64,000 bases of DNA, taken from the NCBI RefSeq assembly GCF_000382285.1, contig NZ_KB907937.1, positions 1-64,000 on the forward strand, read 5' to 3'. Numbering within the stretch: the first letter of the stretch is position 1; the number at the start of each line of letters is the position of its first letter. This DNA is from Solimonas variicoloris DSM 15731. Its GTDB lineage: Bacteria; Pseudomonadota; Gammaproteobacteria; Nevskiales; Nevskiaceae. A program made the translations under genes and the position numbers. Below the pieces are notes generated by a model. That model saw only the letters and a list, made by a program, of their open reading frames with translations. It made no database searches and was not told the origin of the DNA. Shown piece by piece: positions 24,716 through 29,825 of the stretch.

Positions 24716-24791
24716 TGGCGCTCCTACCCGGATTCGAACCGGGGTTTAAGCCTTGAGAGGGCTCCGTCCTAGGCCTCTAGACGATAGGAGC
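24716..24791 (-). tRNA. tRNA-Glu (anticodon CUC)
   Basis: 76 nt including an encoded CCA. The acceptor stem GCTCCTA/TAGGAGC pairs fully. The D-arm TCGTCTAGAGGCCTAGGAC is typical of tRNA-Glu. The anticodon loop CTCTCAA gives anticodon CTC at positions 34-36, closed by GAGCC/GGCTT with one G-T pair. The T-arm is CCCGG-TTCGAAT-CCGGG. It reads GAG codons. A good promoter and an intrinsic terminator flank it, so it looks like a single-gene transcript. Confidence 0.95.
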
Positions 24792-26191: not shown

Positions 26192-26673
26192 AGCGCCGCG
26201 CCTACATCGGGCTCGGCGCCAATCTCGGCGACCCGCCGGCGCGGCTGCGCTGGGCCTTGACCCGCTTGCGTGAACTCGGCGAGGTCGTCGCGCATTCGTC
26301 CCTGTACCGCAGCGCGCCGATGGGGCCGCGCGAGCAGCCCGAGTTCTGCAATGCGGTGGCGCGCCTCGATACCGCGATGGAGCCCGCCGAACTGATGCAG
26401 GCTCTGCTCGCGATCGAACGCGACGCCGGCCGCGTCCGCGACATCAAGTGGGGGCCGCGCACGCTCGATCTCGACCTGCTGCACGTCGAAGGATTCGTCC
26501 ACGACACGCCCGAGCTGCGCCTGCCGCATCCGGGGATCGCCGAGCGCAACTTCGTGCTGGTGCCCTGGGCGGAGATCGCACCGGCGCTCGAGGTGCCCGG
26601 TCTCGGCCGCGTCGGCGAGTGTGCTGCGCGGATCGGCAACGAAGGTCTGGCGCTGTGGGATTCCGGCAATTGA
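26188..26673 (+). CDS. folK: 2-amino-4-hydroxy-6-hydroxymethyldihydropteridine pyrophosphokinase
   Basis: 161 residues. Transfers pyrophosphate from ATP to the pterin in folate synthesis. Family motifs are clear: YIGLGANLGDP at the N-terminus, RSAPMGPREQPEFCNAV, and the metal-binding WGPRTLDLDLL with LPHPG after it. GTG start overlapping the pcnB stop. Its own stop codon lies within the -35 box of the panB promoter, so panB has a separate start point although pcnB-folK-panB-panC are all in one direction. Confidence 0.93.
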   Translation: MKRRAYIGLGANLGDPPARLRWALTRLRELGEVVAHSSLYRSAPMGPREQPEFCNAVARLDTAMEPAELMQALLAIERDAGRVRDIKWGPRTLDLDLLHVEGFVHDTPELRLPHPGIAERNFVLVPWAEIAPALEVPGLGRVGECAARIGNEGLALWDSGN

Positions 26674-26697
26674 CCGGGCGTTCGAATGGGCTACACT
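26670..26697 (+). promoter_or_regulatory. panB promoter
   Basis: TTGACC (26670-26675), 16-base spacer, TACACT (26692-26697). The -35 box contains the folK stop codon. The bases AATGGGCTA (26685-26693) recur exactly in the panD promoter. Predicted start near 26704, giving a leader of about 190 nt. Confidence 0.65.
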
Positions 26698-26715
26698 GCG
26701 CCCGCTTCGCACTCG

Positions 26716-26771
26716 GCCGCCGGGCCGCGGGCGGCGCGCATCGGGTGTCTGCCTTAGTGGGCCGCCCTTTT
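26716..26771 (+). promoter_or_regulatory. possible attenuator in the panB leader (terminator-like hairpin with competing upstream pairing)
   Basis: GGGCGGC (26729-26735) can pair with GCCGCCC (26761-26767), seven GC pairs followed by TTTT, which resembles an intrinsic terminator. The same GGGCGGC segment can instead pair with GCCGCC at 26716-26721. The loop and 3' arm (TGTCT then GTGGGCCGCCC) resemble a degenerate copy of the pan hairpin found further down. It could also simply terminate folK transcripts. The interpretation is structural only. Confidence 0.35.
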
Positions 26772-26783
26772 CACAAAGCCCGT

Positions 26784-26821
26784 AAACGCCGCGCGTATGT
26801 CTTTTTGGGCCGCGCGCGTTT
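26784..26821 (+). ncRNA. pan leader hairpin, copy 1 (upstream of panB)
   Basis: Stem GCGCG/CGCGC (26791-26795 with 26811-26815) closes the loop TATGTCTTTTTGGGC. An outer helix AAACGC (26784-26789) pairs with GCGTTT (26816-26821), leaving one bulged C at 26790. Inside the loop GTC can pair with GGC, leaving TAT bulged. The loop is identical or one base different in three copies in this window, all before pan genes, while the stems differ but stay paired. This points to an RNA element in the 5' UTR rather than a DNA operator. It is not the known pan RNA motif as I recall it, which is defined by two bulged adenosines. Confidence 0.65.
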
Positions 26822-26893
26822 CCCCATCGAAGCCGCGTGCCCGCCTCGACACTGACGACGAGGCGCGACGCCGAGTCTTCCGGGAGCCCTCAC

Positions 26894-27805
26894 ATGGAAG
26901 TTGCCAAGCCCGTCAACGTCGCCGAGCTGCGCCGCATGCGCGCGGCCGGCGAGAAGATCGCCAGCCTCACCTGCTACGACGCGAGTTTCGCGCTCGTCGA
27001 GGACCGTGCCGGAGTCGACGTCATCCTCGTCGGCGACTCGCTCGGCATGGTCATGCAGGGCGGCACGACGACCACGCCGGTCACCGTCGATCATGTCGTC
27101 TATCACAGCAAATGCGTCGCCCCGCAGCTCAAGCGCGCGTTCCTGGTCGCCGATCTGCCGTTCCTGTCGTACGCCACGCTCGAGCGCGCGCTCGATGCTT
27201 CGCAGCGCCTGATGCAGGAGGGCGGGGCCAAGATGGTCAAGCTCGAGGGCGGCCGCGAGCAGGCGGCGATCGTCGAGTATCTCGCCATCCGCGGCGTGCC
27301 GGTCTGCGCGCACCTCGGCCTGCAGCCGCAGTTCGTCCACAAGATGGGGGCGTTCAAGGTCCAGGGACGCGACGACGCCGCAGCCGAGGCGATGTTGCAC
27401 GACGCCAAAGTGCTGGCCGATGCCGGCGCCGATCTGCTGGTGCTCGAGTGCATCCCGTCCGAGCTCGGCCGTCGCATCACCGAGATCTCGCCAGTCCCCG
27501 TGATCGGCATCGGCGCCGGCCCGGCGACCGACGGCCAGATTCTGGTGCTGCAGGACATCCTCAATATTTCGCCGCTGGTCACCTTGGGGCGCCGTCCGCG
27601 CTTCGTGAAGAACTACATGGACGGGGCAGCGAGCATCGAGGCCGCGATTCGCGCGTACGTTGACGAGGTCAAGACCGGCGCCTATCCGGATGCCGAGCAC
27701 AGCTTCGCCGAGGTTTCCAGGGCCCTGCCGGGAGCGGCGGCTTCGCTGGCGTCGCCGCCGGTCGGCGCGGCGGCCGAGACCGCGATGAAGGTGCCGCGCG
27801 CGTGA
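26894..27805 (+). CDS. panB: 3-methyl-2-oxobutanoate hydroxymethyltransferase
   Basis: First committed step of pantothenate synthesis: ketoisovalerate plus methylene-THF to ketopantoate. 303 residues, with a longer Ala-rich tail than usual. Motifs: LTCYDASFALVEDRAGVD, VGDSLGMVMQGG (metal and substrate site), VYHSKCV, KLEGG, and GIGAGPATDGQILVLQD near the C-terminus. The start ATG has CGGGAG 7 nt upstream and follows a leader of about 190 nt holding the pan hairpin. The stop overlaps the panC start (TGATG). Ketoisovalerate is also the LeuA substrate, and leuA at the left edge is broken. Confidence 0.95.
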   Translation: MEVAKPVNVAELRRMRAAGEKIASLTCYDASFALVEDRAGVDVILVGDSLGMVMQGGTTTTPVTVDHVVYHSKCVAPQLKRAFLVADLPFLSYATLERALDASQRLMQEGGAKMVKLEGGREQAAIVEYLAIRGVPVCAHLGLQPQFVHKMGAFKVQGRDDAAAEAMLHDAKVLADAGADLLVLECIPSELGRRITEISPVPVIGIGAGPATDGQILVLQDILNISPLVTLGRRPRFVKNYMDGAASIEAAIRAYVDEVKTGAYPDAEHSFAEVSRALPGAAASLASPPVGAAAETAMKVPRA

Positions 27806-28659
27806 TGGACACCGTTCACCATATCGACGCGCTGCGCGCACAGTTGCAGGTCTGGCGGCGCGAAGGGGCGCGGATTGCGCTGACGCCGACGATGGGCAAT
27901 CTGCATGCCGGTCATCTGCGTCTCGTCGAAGCCGCGCGCCGCCGCGCCGACCGCGTCGTCGCCAGTGTCTTCGTCAATCCGTTGCAGTTCGGGCCGAACG
28001 AGGATTTCGATCGCTATCCGCGCACGCTGGAGGCCGACGCCGACAAGCTCGCCCAGGCCGGATGCGACCTGCTGTTCGCGCCGAGCGTCGCCGAGATGTA
28101 TCCGCACGGCCGCGACGGCTTCACGGTGATCAGCGTGCCGCGCTATGCCGGTCTGCTTGAAGGCGCGTTCCGGCCGGGGCATTTCGATGGTGTCGCCACG
28201 GTCGTCAACATCCTGCTGACGCTGGTGGCGCCCGATGTCGCGCTGTTCGGCGAAAAGGATTACCAGCAACTGCTGGTCATCCGGCAGATGGCGCGTGATC
28301 TGCACATGCCGGTGGAAATCGTCGGCGTGCCGACCGAGCGCGAGGCGGACGGGCTGGCGCTGTCGTCCCGCAACCAGTACCTGCTGCCGGCCGAGCGGGC
28401 ACAGGCGGCGATGCTGTATGCCGCCCTGCAGCGCGTCGGCGAGGCACTGCGCGCCGGCCGGCGCGACTACGCCGCGCTGTGCGCGATTGAGACCGAGCGC
28501 CTCGAGGCTGCCGGATTTCGTCCGCAATATTTGACCGTCCGGCGGCCCGACTTGAGCGAGCCGGACGCGGCCGACCACGAATTTCGCGTCCTTTTGGCAT
28601 CTTTTCTGGGCAATACGAGGCTGATTGACAACATCGGTCTTATAACGGAAACGGTTTGA
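27805..28659 (+). CDS. panC: pantothenate synthetase
   Basis: 284 residues. Joins pantoate and beta-alanine with ATP. The HIGH-like ATP site is TPTMGNLHAGH, then VFVNPLQFGPNEDFDRYPRT, the pantoate/ATP loop GAFRPGHFDGVATVV, FGEKDYQQL and the KMSKS-like LALSSRNQYL. ATG 27805 shares its A with the panB stop; a GTG at 27802 is a possible alternative. Its stop codon overlaps the -35 box of the panD promoter. Confidence 0.95.
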   Translation: MDTVHHIDALRAQLQVWRREGARIALTPTMGNLHAGHLRLVEAARRRADRVVASVFVNPLQFGPNEDFDRYPRTLEADADKLAQAGCDLLFAPSVAEMYPHGRDGFTVISVPRYAGLLEGAFRPGHFDGVATVVNILLTLVAPDVALFGEKDYQQLLVIRQMARDLHMPVEIVGVPTEREADGLALSSRNQYLLPAERAQAAMLYAALQRVGEALRAGRRDYAALCAIETERLEAAGFRPQYLTVRRPDLSEPDAADHEFRVLLASFLGNTRLIDNIGLITETV

Positions 28660-28683
28660 TCATAGAGCGAAATGGGCTAGAAT
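28656..28683 (+). promoter_or_regulatory. panD promoter
   Basis: TTGATC (28656-28661), 16-base spacer, TAGAAT (28678-28683). The -35 box includes the panC stop codon, and AATGGGCTA (28671-28679) repeats the core seen at the panB promoter. Predicted start near 28690, leader about 130 nt. Confidence 0.65.
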
Positions 28684-28698
28684 CGCGGCCCAGAGCTT

Positions 28699-28714
28699 TG
28701 TGACCATCATCACA
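28699..28714. promoter_or_regulatory. CRP-type palindrome or leader hairpin before panD
   Basis: TGTGACCATCATCACA matches TGTGA-N6-TCACA exactly and extends by one T/A pair on each side. It begins about 9 bases after the predicted start point, a position from which a bound protein would block transcription. In RNA the same bases form a 6-7 bp hairpin just before the first pan hairpin of this leader. Confidence 0.5.
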
Positions 28715-28715
28715 A

Positions 28716-28750
28716 GCACCGGGCGTATGTCTTTGTGGGCCGCCCGCCTT
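28716..28750 (+). ncRNA. pan leader hairpin, copy 2 (upstream of panD)
   Basis: Stem GGGCG/CGCCC (28721-28725 with 28741-28745) closes TATGTCTTTGTGGGC, one base different from the other copies. A further C-G pair extends the stem and AAG/CTT can form an outer helix across an internal loop. As before panB, a TCACAA sequence directly precedes the element. Confidence 0.65.
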
Positions 28751-28765
28751 TATCGAGATCCGCGA

Positions 28766-28798
28766 GCGCCGGCGTATGTCTTTTTGGGCCGCCGACGC
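28766..28798 (+). ncRNA. pan leader hairpin, copy 3 (upstream of panD, tandem)
   Basis: Stem CGGCG/CGCCG (28770-28774 with 28790-28794) closes TATGTCTTTTTGGGC, identical in loop to copy 1. GCG (28766-28768) pairs with CGC (28796-28798) across a C/A mismatch. It ends 23 bases before the panD ATG. GGGCC in its loop is complementary to GGCCC in the ribosome-binding region (28814-28818), so it could influence initiation. Confidence 0.65.
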
Positions 28799-28821
28799 AG
28801 CAACAATTCCTGAGGCCCTCC

Positions 28822-29211
28822 ATGCAACTGCAACTGCTGAAATGCAAGCTGCATCGCGCTTGCGTGACGCACGCCGAGTTGGACTACGACGGTTCCTGCG
28901 CGATCGATGCCAAGCTCCTCGAACTGGCCAATATCCTCGAGTTCGAGCAGATCCAGATTTACAACATCACGAACGGCGAGCGTTTCACGACTTACGCCAT
29001 CAAGGCCGAGCCGGGGTCGGGCATCATCTCGGTGAACGGCGCTGCCGCGCACAAGGCCGGCGTCGGTGACCGCGTCATCATCTGCGCGTTTGCGTCGATG
29101 GATGCAGCCGCGGCGCGCGTCTACAAGCCGAGCTTGGTCTATCTAGACGAAAAGAACCGCGTCGTCCGCACCGCGAACACGATTCCGGTTCAGCCCGCCG
29201 CCAGCGCGTGA
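28822..29211 (+). CDS. panD: aspartate 1-decarboxylase
   Basis: Makes beta-alanine for pantothenate. 129 residues. The self-cleavage site Gly24-Ser25 is in [11 protein letters not shown], giving the pyruvoyl group; [12 protein letters not shown], the catalytic region [10 protein letters not shown] and [13 protein letters not shown] are all intact. GAGG at 28812-28815 is the likely ribosome site. It has its own promoter and a leader with two tandem pan hairpins. The stop codon overlaps the next start, coupling it to a 2-oxoglutarate oxygenase. Confidence 0.95.
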
Positions 29212-29825
29212 AGCGCGTCGAGGCGTGGTTTCCCACGCTGATCTACTGCGAACGCCTGCAGGCGCAAGGCCTGCGGGCGTTTAATGCAGAGTTGCTCGAC
29301 GAGTGCTATCGCATTCGCGAGCATGACGCAGCCGGGCGCAAGTGGTCGGAGCCGAACTATCCGCTCGGCTATACCAGCTACGGATCGCTCGACCGGCTGC
29401 ACCAGTTTTCCTCGACCTTCGACACCTTGCGCCGACAGGTCGACGCGCACGTGCGACGTTACGCGAATGCGTTGCAATGGAATCTGCGCGGCGGCCGGTT
29501 GCTGATGACCGACTGCTGGATCAACATCATGCCGCGCGGTTGCGCGCACAGCTTCCATATTCACCCGCAGGCCGTGCTCAGCGGCACCTATTACGTGCGG
29601 ACGCCGCGCGGCAGCAGCGGTCTGAAGTTCGAGGATCCCCGCCTTTCGAAGCTGATGGCTGCGCCGCCGCGCCGGCCTGGCGCGAAGTCACAGCAGCCTC
29701 ACATCGTCTATCCGGCCAAGGCCGGACAGCTCATTCTGTTCGAAAGCTGGCTGCGCCATGAGGTGCCGGCAAGCCGCATCGACAGCGAGCGCGTCAGTAT
29801 CAGCTTCAACTACCACTGGCTCTGA
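29208..29825 (+). CDS. 2OG-Fe(II) oxygenase, TIGR02466-like
   Basis: 205 residues with the cupin fold pattern of this small dioxygenase family. It opens [13 protein letters not shown]; iron ligands are probably in [17 protein letters not shown] and in the [12 protein letters not shown] block, followed by the 2-oxoglutarate Arg in [13 protein letters not shown] start overlapping the panD stop (GTGA). The substrate is unknown; relatives occur in marine and freshwater bacteria and phages. Coupling to panD suggests expression with pantothenate synthesis, but a functional link is not shown. Confidence 0.72.

Follow-up and report, generated by a model that had tools for sequence, protein, structure and literature searches.

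The window analyzed here, a 64-kb stretch of DNA from Solimonas variicoloris DSM 15731 whose coordinates are used throughout, carries the pantothenate genes panB, panC, and panD together with two leaders, one before panB and one before panD, that each contain a tandem pair of small hairpins of a single family. We conclude that this element is almost certainly a genuine, structured leader RNA specific to pan genes. Reading frames on the + strand, where all features of the leaders lie, place panB (ketopantoate hydroxymethyltransferase) at 26894 to 27805, panC (pantothenate synthetase) at 27802 to 28659, and panD (aspartate 1-decarboxylase) at 28822 to 29211; we take these functions from what is established for the families and, for panB, also from gene order. 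Compared with Solimonas flava DSM 18980 (locus L067), the PanD protein of the window is 100% identical and PanB is 95% identical. A promoter scan of positions 26640 to 28840 returned only two sigma-70-type promoters (shuffle mean, 0.3), one before each leader: TTGACC-16 nucleotides-TACACT at 26670 to 26697 upstream of panB and TTGATC-16 nucleotides-TAGAAT at 28656 to 28683 upstream of panD.

The hairpins share a 15-mer, TATGTCTTTKTGGGC, that occurs exactly at three sites in the window (26796 to 26810, 28726 to 28740, and 28775 to 28789). An earlier note on this DNA had reported three copies confined to the pan leaders, one clear copy before panB and two before panD. The three exact sites and the panD pair were as reported, but a fourth copy with three mismatches, at 26748 to 26762 in the panB leader, had been missed. 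Because the hairpin at 26742 to 26768 is such a variant copy, each leader holds a tandem pair: 26742 to 26768 and 26790 to 26816 before panB and 28720 to 28746 and 28769 to 28795 before panD. Four or more matches at the three-mismatch stringency arose in 1 of 100 dinucleotide shuffles. With up to two mismatches, the entire source genome yields the three window copies and one unrelated site; the covariance model described below reports four places in this genome, and the unrelated site is none of them.

In single-strand folding, all copies took one common shape, made up of an outer stem, a 3-nucleotide bulge, a 4-bp inner helix of the GUCU/GGGC type with two U-G pairs, and a 4-nucleotide loop. 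The 15 bases, previously taken for a loop, are therefore mostly structured; the outer stems of the three exact copies (GCGCG/CGCGC, GGGCG/CGCCC, and CGGCG/CGCCG) are those that the note had listed. Across 53 copies, the consensus comprises a one-sided YAU bulge, the GUCU/GGGC helix, and a UNKU loop. The possibility that the core encodes a short peptide (ATG TCT TTK TGG) was considered and ruled out, as many relatives have TAG in that frame. In the panB leader, hairpin 1 (26742 to 26768) has the variant core UCUGCCUUAGUGGGC and a GGGUG/CGCCC stem; it was assigned by folding and by the covariance model at 38.2 bits (E value of 6.3e-6), a score that is not independent, since this copy was one of the 53 from which the model had been built. 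Hairpin 2 (26784 to 26821, with its conserved 27-mer at 26790 to 26816) has an extended AAACGC/GCGUUU stem with one 5' bulged base and was assigned by the covariance model and an arm-swap test. In the panD leader, hairpin 1 (28720 to 28746; folding and covariance model, 45.5 bits) is followed by hairpin 2 (28762 to 28801, with its 27-mer at 28769 to 28795; covariance model, 37.9 bits, and arm swap), whose extended stem drifts in sequence but remains paired. The folding energies of the two window leaders are ordinary relative to shuffles (z scores of 0.21 and -0.76) in this GC-rich DNA, and the case therefore rests on comparison with relatives rather than on stability.

To make this comparison, we used a covariance model, R1, constructed from 53 distinct copies in 26 PanB-anchored loci, 3 of 56 pattern matches having been dropped as chance. 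We searched 58 genomes of family f1, which we infer from named records to be the Nevskiaceae, at E values up to 0.05 with stricter filters that lose some weak matches. R1 matched in 56 of the 58 genomes, which are exactly the 56 in which a PanD search finds panD; the two family genomes without a panD match have no R1 match either. Nearly all matches (146 of 148) lie on the same strand and within 400 nucleotides upstream of panD (56 genomes) or panB (18 genomes), and the other two are weak (26.5 and 24.9 bits). The panD leader contains a tandem pair in 55 of 56 genomes, G036 having one hairpin at this threshold and a second that is weak (20.3 bits); the 18 panB elements comprise 17 pairs and one single hairpin. 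R1 drew its sequences from 26 of the 56 genomes; the other 30 contributed none, though some of these (such as G038, G047, and G050) carry copies identical to ones used. G035 has panB and panD on different contigs and still keeps the element before panD.

Beyond this family, a search of the order at E values up to 0.01 found the element in 57 of 85 genomes: 56 of 58 in f1, the single f3 genome, and none of the 26 genomes of f2, f4, f5, and f6. PanD was found in 21 of the 24 genomes asked among those 26, and at these 21 loci nothing scored above 12.0 bits with filters off. Outside the order, at E values up to 5e-4, R1 found only the source genome itself in a class sample (1 of 369) and a partly overlapping phylum sample (1 of 398). 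We also scanned one genome per species across 84,980 species for the tandem pattern and obtained 57 stretches, a number that is a lower bound because only stretches with two close core matches fit the pattern. Pan genes are present in 47 of these stretches, whose main record names are Solimonas, Nevskia, Hydrocarboniphaga, Sinimarinibacterium, Fontimonas, Stagnimonas, Panacagrimonas, Polycyclovorans, Algiphilus, and Nevskiaceae/Nevskiales; some are labeled otherwise, as Gammaproteobacteria, Sinobacteraceae, Lysobacteraceae, or metagenome-assembled genomes called Rhodospirillales and Verrucomicrobia. Locus L097 has one further tandem pair, which reaches the end of the locus, so that any gene following it would lie outside the stretch.

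The other 10 stretches lack a pan gene, as might be expected of a chance motif or a mobile repeat. Judged by eye, however, their flanks do not resemble the element, and direct-repeat arrays account for several of them; viral contigs gave no tandem match, and the pan association of the R1 matches contradicts such an origin, the likelihood of which we consider negligible. Both the covariance-model search and the outcome that would count against a regulatory element, scatter beside unrelated genes, had been named in the earlier note, and no such scatter was seen. Separately, a Myxococcales metagenome-assembled genome carries on two contigs (L102 and L113), in the absence of pan genes, identical 30-nucleotide repeats that contain CTGTCTTTGTGGGCC and are spaced 48 and 75 nucleotides apart; because these spacings are multiples of three, they suggest that the repeats lie inside a coding gene.

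We next consider whether the shared shape is maintained as RNA structure. The 53 copies form standard pairs at a higher rate than shuffles (90.4% versus 85.4%) and hold 29 cells with both-side pair changes, compared with 9.3 in shuffles; pairing is lost when the partner is slid. Other measures on the same copies speak against maintained pairing: neither the number of pairs with a both-side change (4 versus 3.0) nor the number of pair types (10 versus 10.3) exceeds that of shuffles, and in the ungapped 27-nucleotide alignment the three outermost pairs are unpaired in 21, 17, and 10 of the 53 copies. A consensus fold of the full leader recovered two hairpins only, with both-side changes in 3 of 17 pairs. 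Because the bulge in hairpin 2 was taken to upset the full-leader alignment, we used an arm-swap test, in which the folding of each native hairpin is compared with the mean of versions carrying the 3' arms of relatives. For hairpin 2, the native version folded better in 45 of 46 panD leaders (mean, -17.4 versus -13.6 kcal/mol) and in 14 of 16 panB leaders. For hairpin 1, there was no effect (21 of 45 panD and 2 of 16 panB leaders). A stem this short and conserved would be expected to give such a null result, which doubles as a control for base composition; the hairpin 1 stem is nearly invariant and leaves little covariation signal. The outer stem of hairpin 2 is longer, usually with a bulge or mismatch, and its sequence drifts freely with the arms staying matched. 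One panD hairpin 2 (L012:3387-3413) has an odd stem, CGUUAG...CAUACG, in which, by eye, GUAUG/CAUAC could pair instead and absorb the bulge.

A sequence-variable stem-loop of the GUGA/UCAC type, designated P0, precedes hairpin 1 of the panD leader (28695 to 28717 in the window, from folding); its mean z score over 48 panD leaders is -1.55, with 75% below -1, and it is less clear in panB leaders (mean, -0.83; 50% below -1). The linker between the hairpins is unstructured (mean z score of 0.15 for panD and -0.06 for panB).

Promoter-like boxes in the relatives suggest that the hairpins lie within the transcript. A -10-like box (TANAHT) occurs within 70 nucleotides upstream of hairpin 1 in 47 of 48 panD leaders (5.4 expected) and in 16 of 16 panB leaders (0.6 expected); at panD, 39 of the 47 boxes start 34 to 50 nucleotides upstream of hairpin 1. 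Because this box precedes it, the hairpin pair is probably transcribed. The strongly conserved, nonpalindromic core and its direct orientation would also suit direct repeats bound by a transcription factor as a DNA operator. The location of the sites downstream of the -10-like box makes an operator unlikely, however, and the spacing between the two hairpins varies from 46 to 53 nucleotides at panD (mode, 49); in addition, the stem of hairpin 2 drifts yet stays complementary, which is not the mark of an operator. We therefore consider an operator highly improbable, in agreement with the preference of the earlier note for RNA structure over a DNA site. That note had also read covariation from the stems, for which its three sequences alone were no proof; the arm-swap result at hairpin 2 now provides the support. 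Together, the position in the 5' untranslated region, a structure that keeps its complementarity, and functionally linked genes, with promoter-like boxes pointing to transcription, are what generally characterizes a cis-regulatory leader RNA.

How such a leader might act is suggested by its distance from the genes. The 27-mer of hairpin 2 lies 24 to 33 nucleotides before the start of the PanD match in 54 of 55 two-hairpin genomes and 40 nucleotides before it in one; in the window, the panD start codon is 26 nucleotides past it. The distance to panB is variable, from 59 to 163 nucleotides in 17 pairs. We sorted 16 distinct two-hairpin panB leaders into a Nevskia type (L059, L064, L074, L086, L101, L025, L093, and L097) and a Solimonas type (eight leaders, that of the window among them). 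All eight Nevskia-type leaders contain a reading frame of 20 to 38 codons that starts 23 to 27 nucleotides past hairpin 2, which is the panD distance. Like panD, six of these eight frames open with ATGCAA, and in most cases a comparable AGGA-type site precedes them. The frames end in ATGA or GTGA, and in seven of them the stop and the inferred panB start overlap; in the eighth, L097, the frame ends in GTGA 17 nucleotides before the aligned panB start. The Nevskia-type panB leader is apparently a panD leader copied with its start site, from which panB would now be translated by coupling. Overlap of stop and start is a weak sign taken alone, because a frame that ends at or near the panB start also occurs in three of the eight Solimonas-type leaders; the panD-like start is the stronger one, and the eight Solimonas-type leaders retain no frame that begins in this way.

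Solimonas-type leaders feature instead a predicted helix, P3, between UUCCC-like sequence just 3' of hairpin 2 and the likely panB Shine-Dalgarno sequence (in the window, 26820 to 26886, where UUCCC pairs with GGGAG at 26882 to 26886). Its mean z score is -1.47 in the Solimonas type versus +0.45 in the Nevskia type, six of the eight Solimonas-type leaders beat the mean in the arm swap, and the panB Shine-Dalgarno sequence is predicted to be mostly paired in seven of eight. From the panD-like start at Nevskia-type panB genes and P3 at Solimonas-type panB genes, we infer that translation initiation is the controlled step, which seems reasonably likely on these sequence comparisons.

Several observations count against this assignment. 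No expression platform was identified at panD, where the region from -14 to -8 has a predicted mean unpaired probability of 0.38 and the sequence following hairpin 2, folded by itself, does not differ from shuffles (z score of -0.13); examined by eye in one set of leaders, the core showed no pairing partner in the panD Shine-Dalgarno region that is kept across lineages. The two types of panB leader were sorted after inspection, and three of the eight Solimonas-type leaders (L009, L023, and L028) do hold some frame that ends at or near the panB start. P3 itself is moderately supported, as two of eight leaders fail the arm swap and the window copy has a z score of only -0.79. Pairing of the Shine-Dalgarno sequence is not specific either: it is mostly paired in six of eight Nevskia-type leaders as well, at a looser limit (unpaired probability of 0.25 or less).

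A leader with tandem hairpins in the 5' untranslated region would also be compatible with transcription attenuation or antitermination. We found no terminator-like site on the + strand of positions 26640 to 28840, in a scan confined to the leaders of the window. The short interval left between hairpin 2 and panD and the retention by Nevskia-type panB leaders of a start site at the panD distance also argue against this mechanism, which we regard as improbable.

Taken together, these results make it likely that the element acts in cis as a regulatory RNA in the 5' untranslated region of panD, and in some lineages of panB, where it tunes the output of pan enzymes. Two nearly identical hairpins about 49 nucleotides apart, joined by an unstructured linker, would act jointly as one binding site, the pairwise action being our reading of their arrangement. 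A feedback signal from the pantothenate/coenzyme A (CoA) pathway would bind the pair and change the access of ribosomes to the start site about 26 nucleotides downstream; the sign, assumed from the pathway, would be repression by the end product.

The binder may be a dimeric RNA-binding protein that reports the status of the pathway, to which we give an even chance. Tandem, nearly identical simple hairpins, with fixed cores and a drifting hairpin 2 stem, would suit such a protein, as would the narrow lineage range; no candidate protein turned up, and no search aimed at one was made. Many metabolite riboswitches are widespread. The element could nevertheless be one, with each hairpin, or the pair jointly, binding CoA, pantothenate, pantoate, or beta-alanine to gate translation, a possibility that we place somewhat below even. 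Each hairpin has many nearly invariant nucleotides, including the conserved U-G pairs and the 3-nucleotide bulge, the tandem spacing is nearly fixed, and the linked genes encode the two entry steps of pantothenate synthesis; in the guanidine-II riboswitch, two simple hairpins make a cooperative aptamer (PMC7266159, PMC9481103). Speaking against a riboswitch is the restriction to one order, with no other genome found in the class and phylum samples, and because of this restriction we lean slightly toward a protein over a metabolite. A more elaborate proposal is that the tandem pair forms a cooperative aptamer binding CoA or pantothenate and supplies the natural RNA sensor that the CoA pathway has so far lacked, that it evolved apart from the known pan motif, and that it was copied from panD to panB with its ribosome-binding site and first codons, governing panB through a translationally coupled small upstream frame. 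This combination we hold to be unlikely.

Such an element is not described in the titles and abstract openings among the matches listed; supplements and subscription papers, including a 2017 list of 224 candidates, were outside that scope, so a prior description is possible. The main texts of three RNA discovery papers (PMC11109978, PMC8632094, and PMC6429828) do not mention panB, panD, pantothenate, aspartate decarboxylase, Solimonas, or Nevskia. A 2022 review describes it as puzzling, and as a blind spot, that no CoA riboswitch is known (PMC9971707). Compact, and occurring in all 56 panD-bearing genomes of the family searched with no other gene context found, the RNA offers a small, inexpensive target for tests with CoA-pathway metabolites, and the Nevskia-type panB arrangement may illustrate how a translational leader can move to a new gene carrying its own start site.

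To compare the element with known RNAs, we scanned the window with cmscan against 4,227 Rfam families. At the gathering cutoff, no family matched except for a distant tRNA gene at 24719 to 24791 on the - strand (RF00005, 58.8 bits), which lies upstream of genes that look like pcnB and folK. Also outside the leaders, a 205-amino-acid reading frame at 29208 to 29825 (+ strand), which presumably resembles a 2-oxoglutarate-dependent oxygenase, lies between panD and a glucose-6-phosphate isomerase-like gene. Between 26680 and 28860, at E values up to 10, isrB (28526 to 28595, - strand) and malK-III (26823 to 26896, + strand; E value of 6.5 each) fell below threshold and were taken as chance, as were nine subthreshold rows in 20 relative loci. 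One perhaps repetitive region, L047:791-917, has subthreshold matches to several Rfam families (the best being BSnc120 at 32.9 bits versus the 114 needed; E value of 0.0007) and lies about 600 nucleotides from the hairpin. The suggestion of an undescribed gammaproteobacterial element is thus consistent with Rfam, but its range was drawn too widely, since we find it only in Nevskiales-like genomes.

Feedback on beta-alanine supply, the purpose that the element would serve, is achieved in E. coli at the protein level by PanD, PanZ, and CoA (PMC4410942, PMC3496974). The PanZ family matched in only 1 of 21 genomes (our own and 20 relatives), with the E. coli control matching, so another form of control would be useful here. 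The sole match (G059:C122:49334-49495, in f3) is weak and partial at 23.5 bits and shares a contig with an element-bearing panD.

Among RNAs, guanidine-II (mini-ykkC) consists of two nearly identical small hairpins in tandem (PMC7266159), with pockets that form by contact of their four-nucleotide loops (PMC9481103). The element is similar in this arrangement, but its core and linked genes differ, and the guanidine-II Rfam model gives no match here.

The closest precedent in gene context is the pan motif (RF01749), which occurs in Firmicutes, Chloroflexi, and deltaproteobacteria. It was not detected in the window at the gathering cutoff or between 26680 and 28860 at E values up to 10, nor in the source genome, where a Bacillus subtilis control matched, nor in 20 relative loci at E values up to 3, which bears out the distinction that the earlier note had drawn. 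Conversely, a genuine pan RNA from a Selenomonas genome scores 51.9 bits against RF01749 and shows different stems in alignment, and R1 finds nothing above 6.0 bits in that pan locus. The pan motif precedes operons for panB, panC, or aspartate decarboxylase, mostly as tandem simple hairpins, each a stem with two bulged A residues, and Weinberg et al. suggested that a dimeric protein binds it (PMC2864571). The element described here likewise consists of tandem hairpins upstream of pan genes, but it has a one-sided YAU bulge, a GUCU/GGGC helix, and a UNKU loop in place of two conserved bulged adenosines. This comparison suggests that tandem-hairpin RNAs of at least two unrelated kinds serve this one pathway in different phyla; RNA control of pantothenate synthesis would then have been invented more than once.

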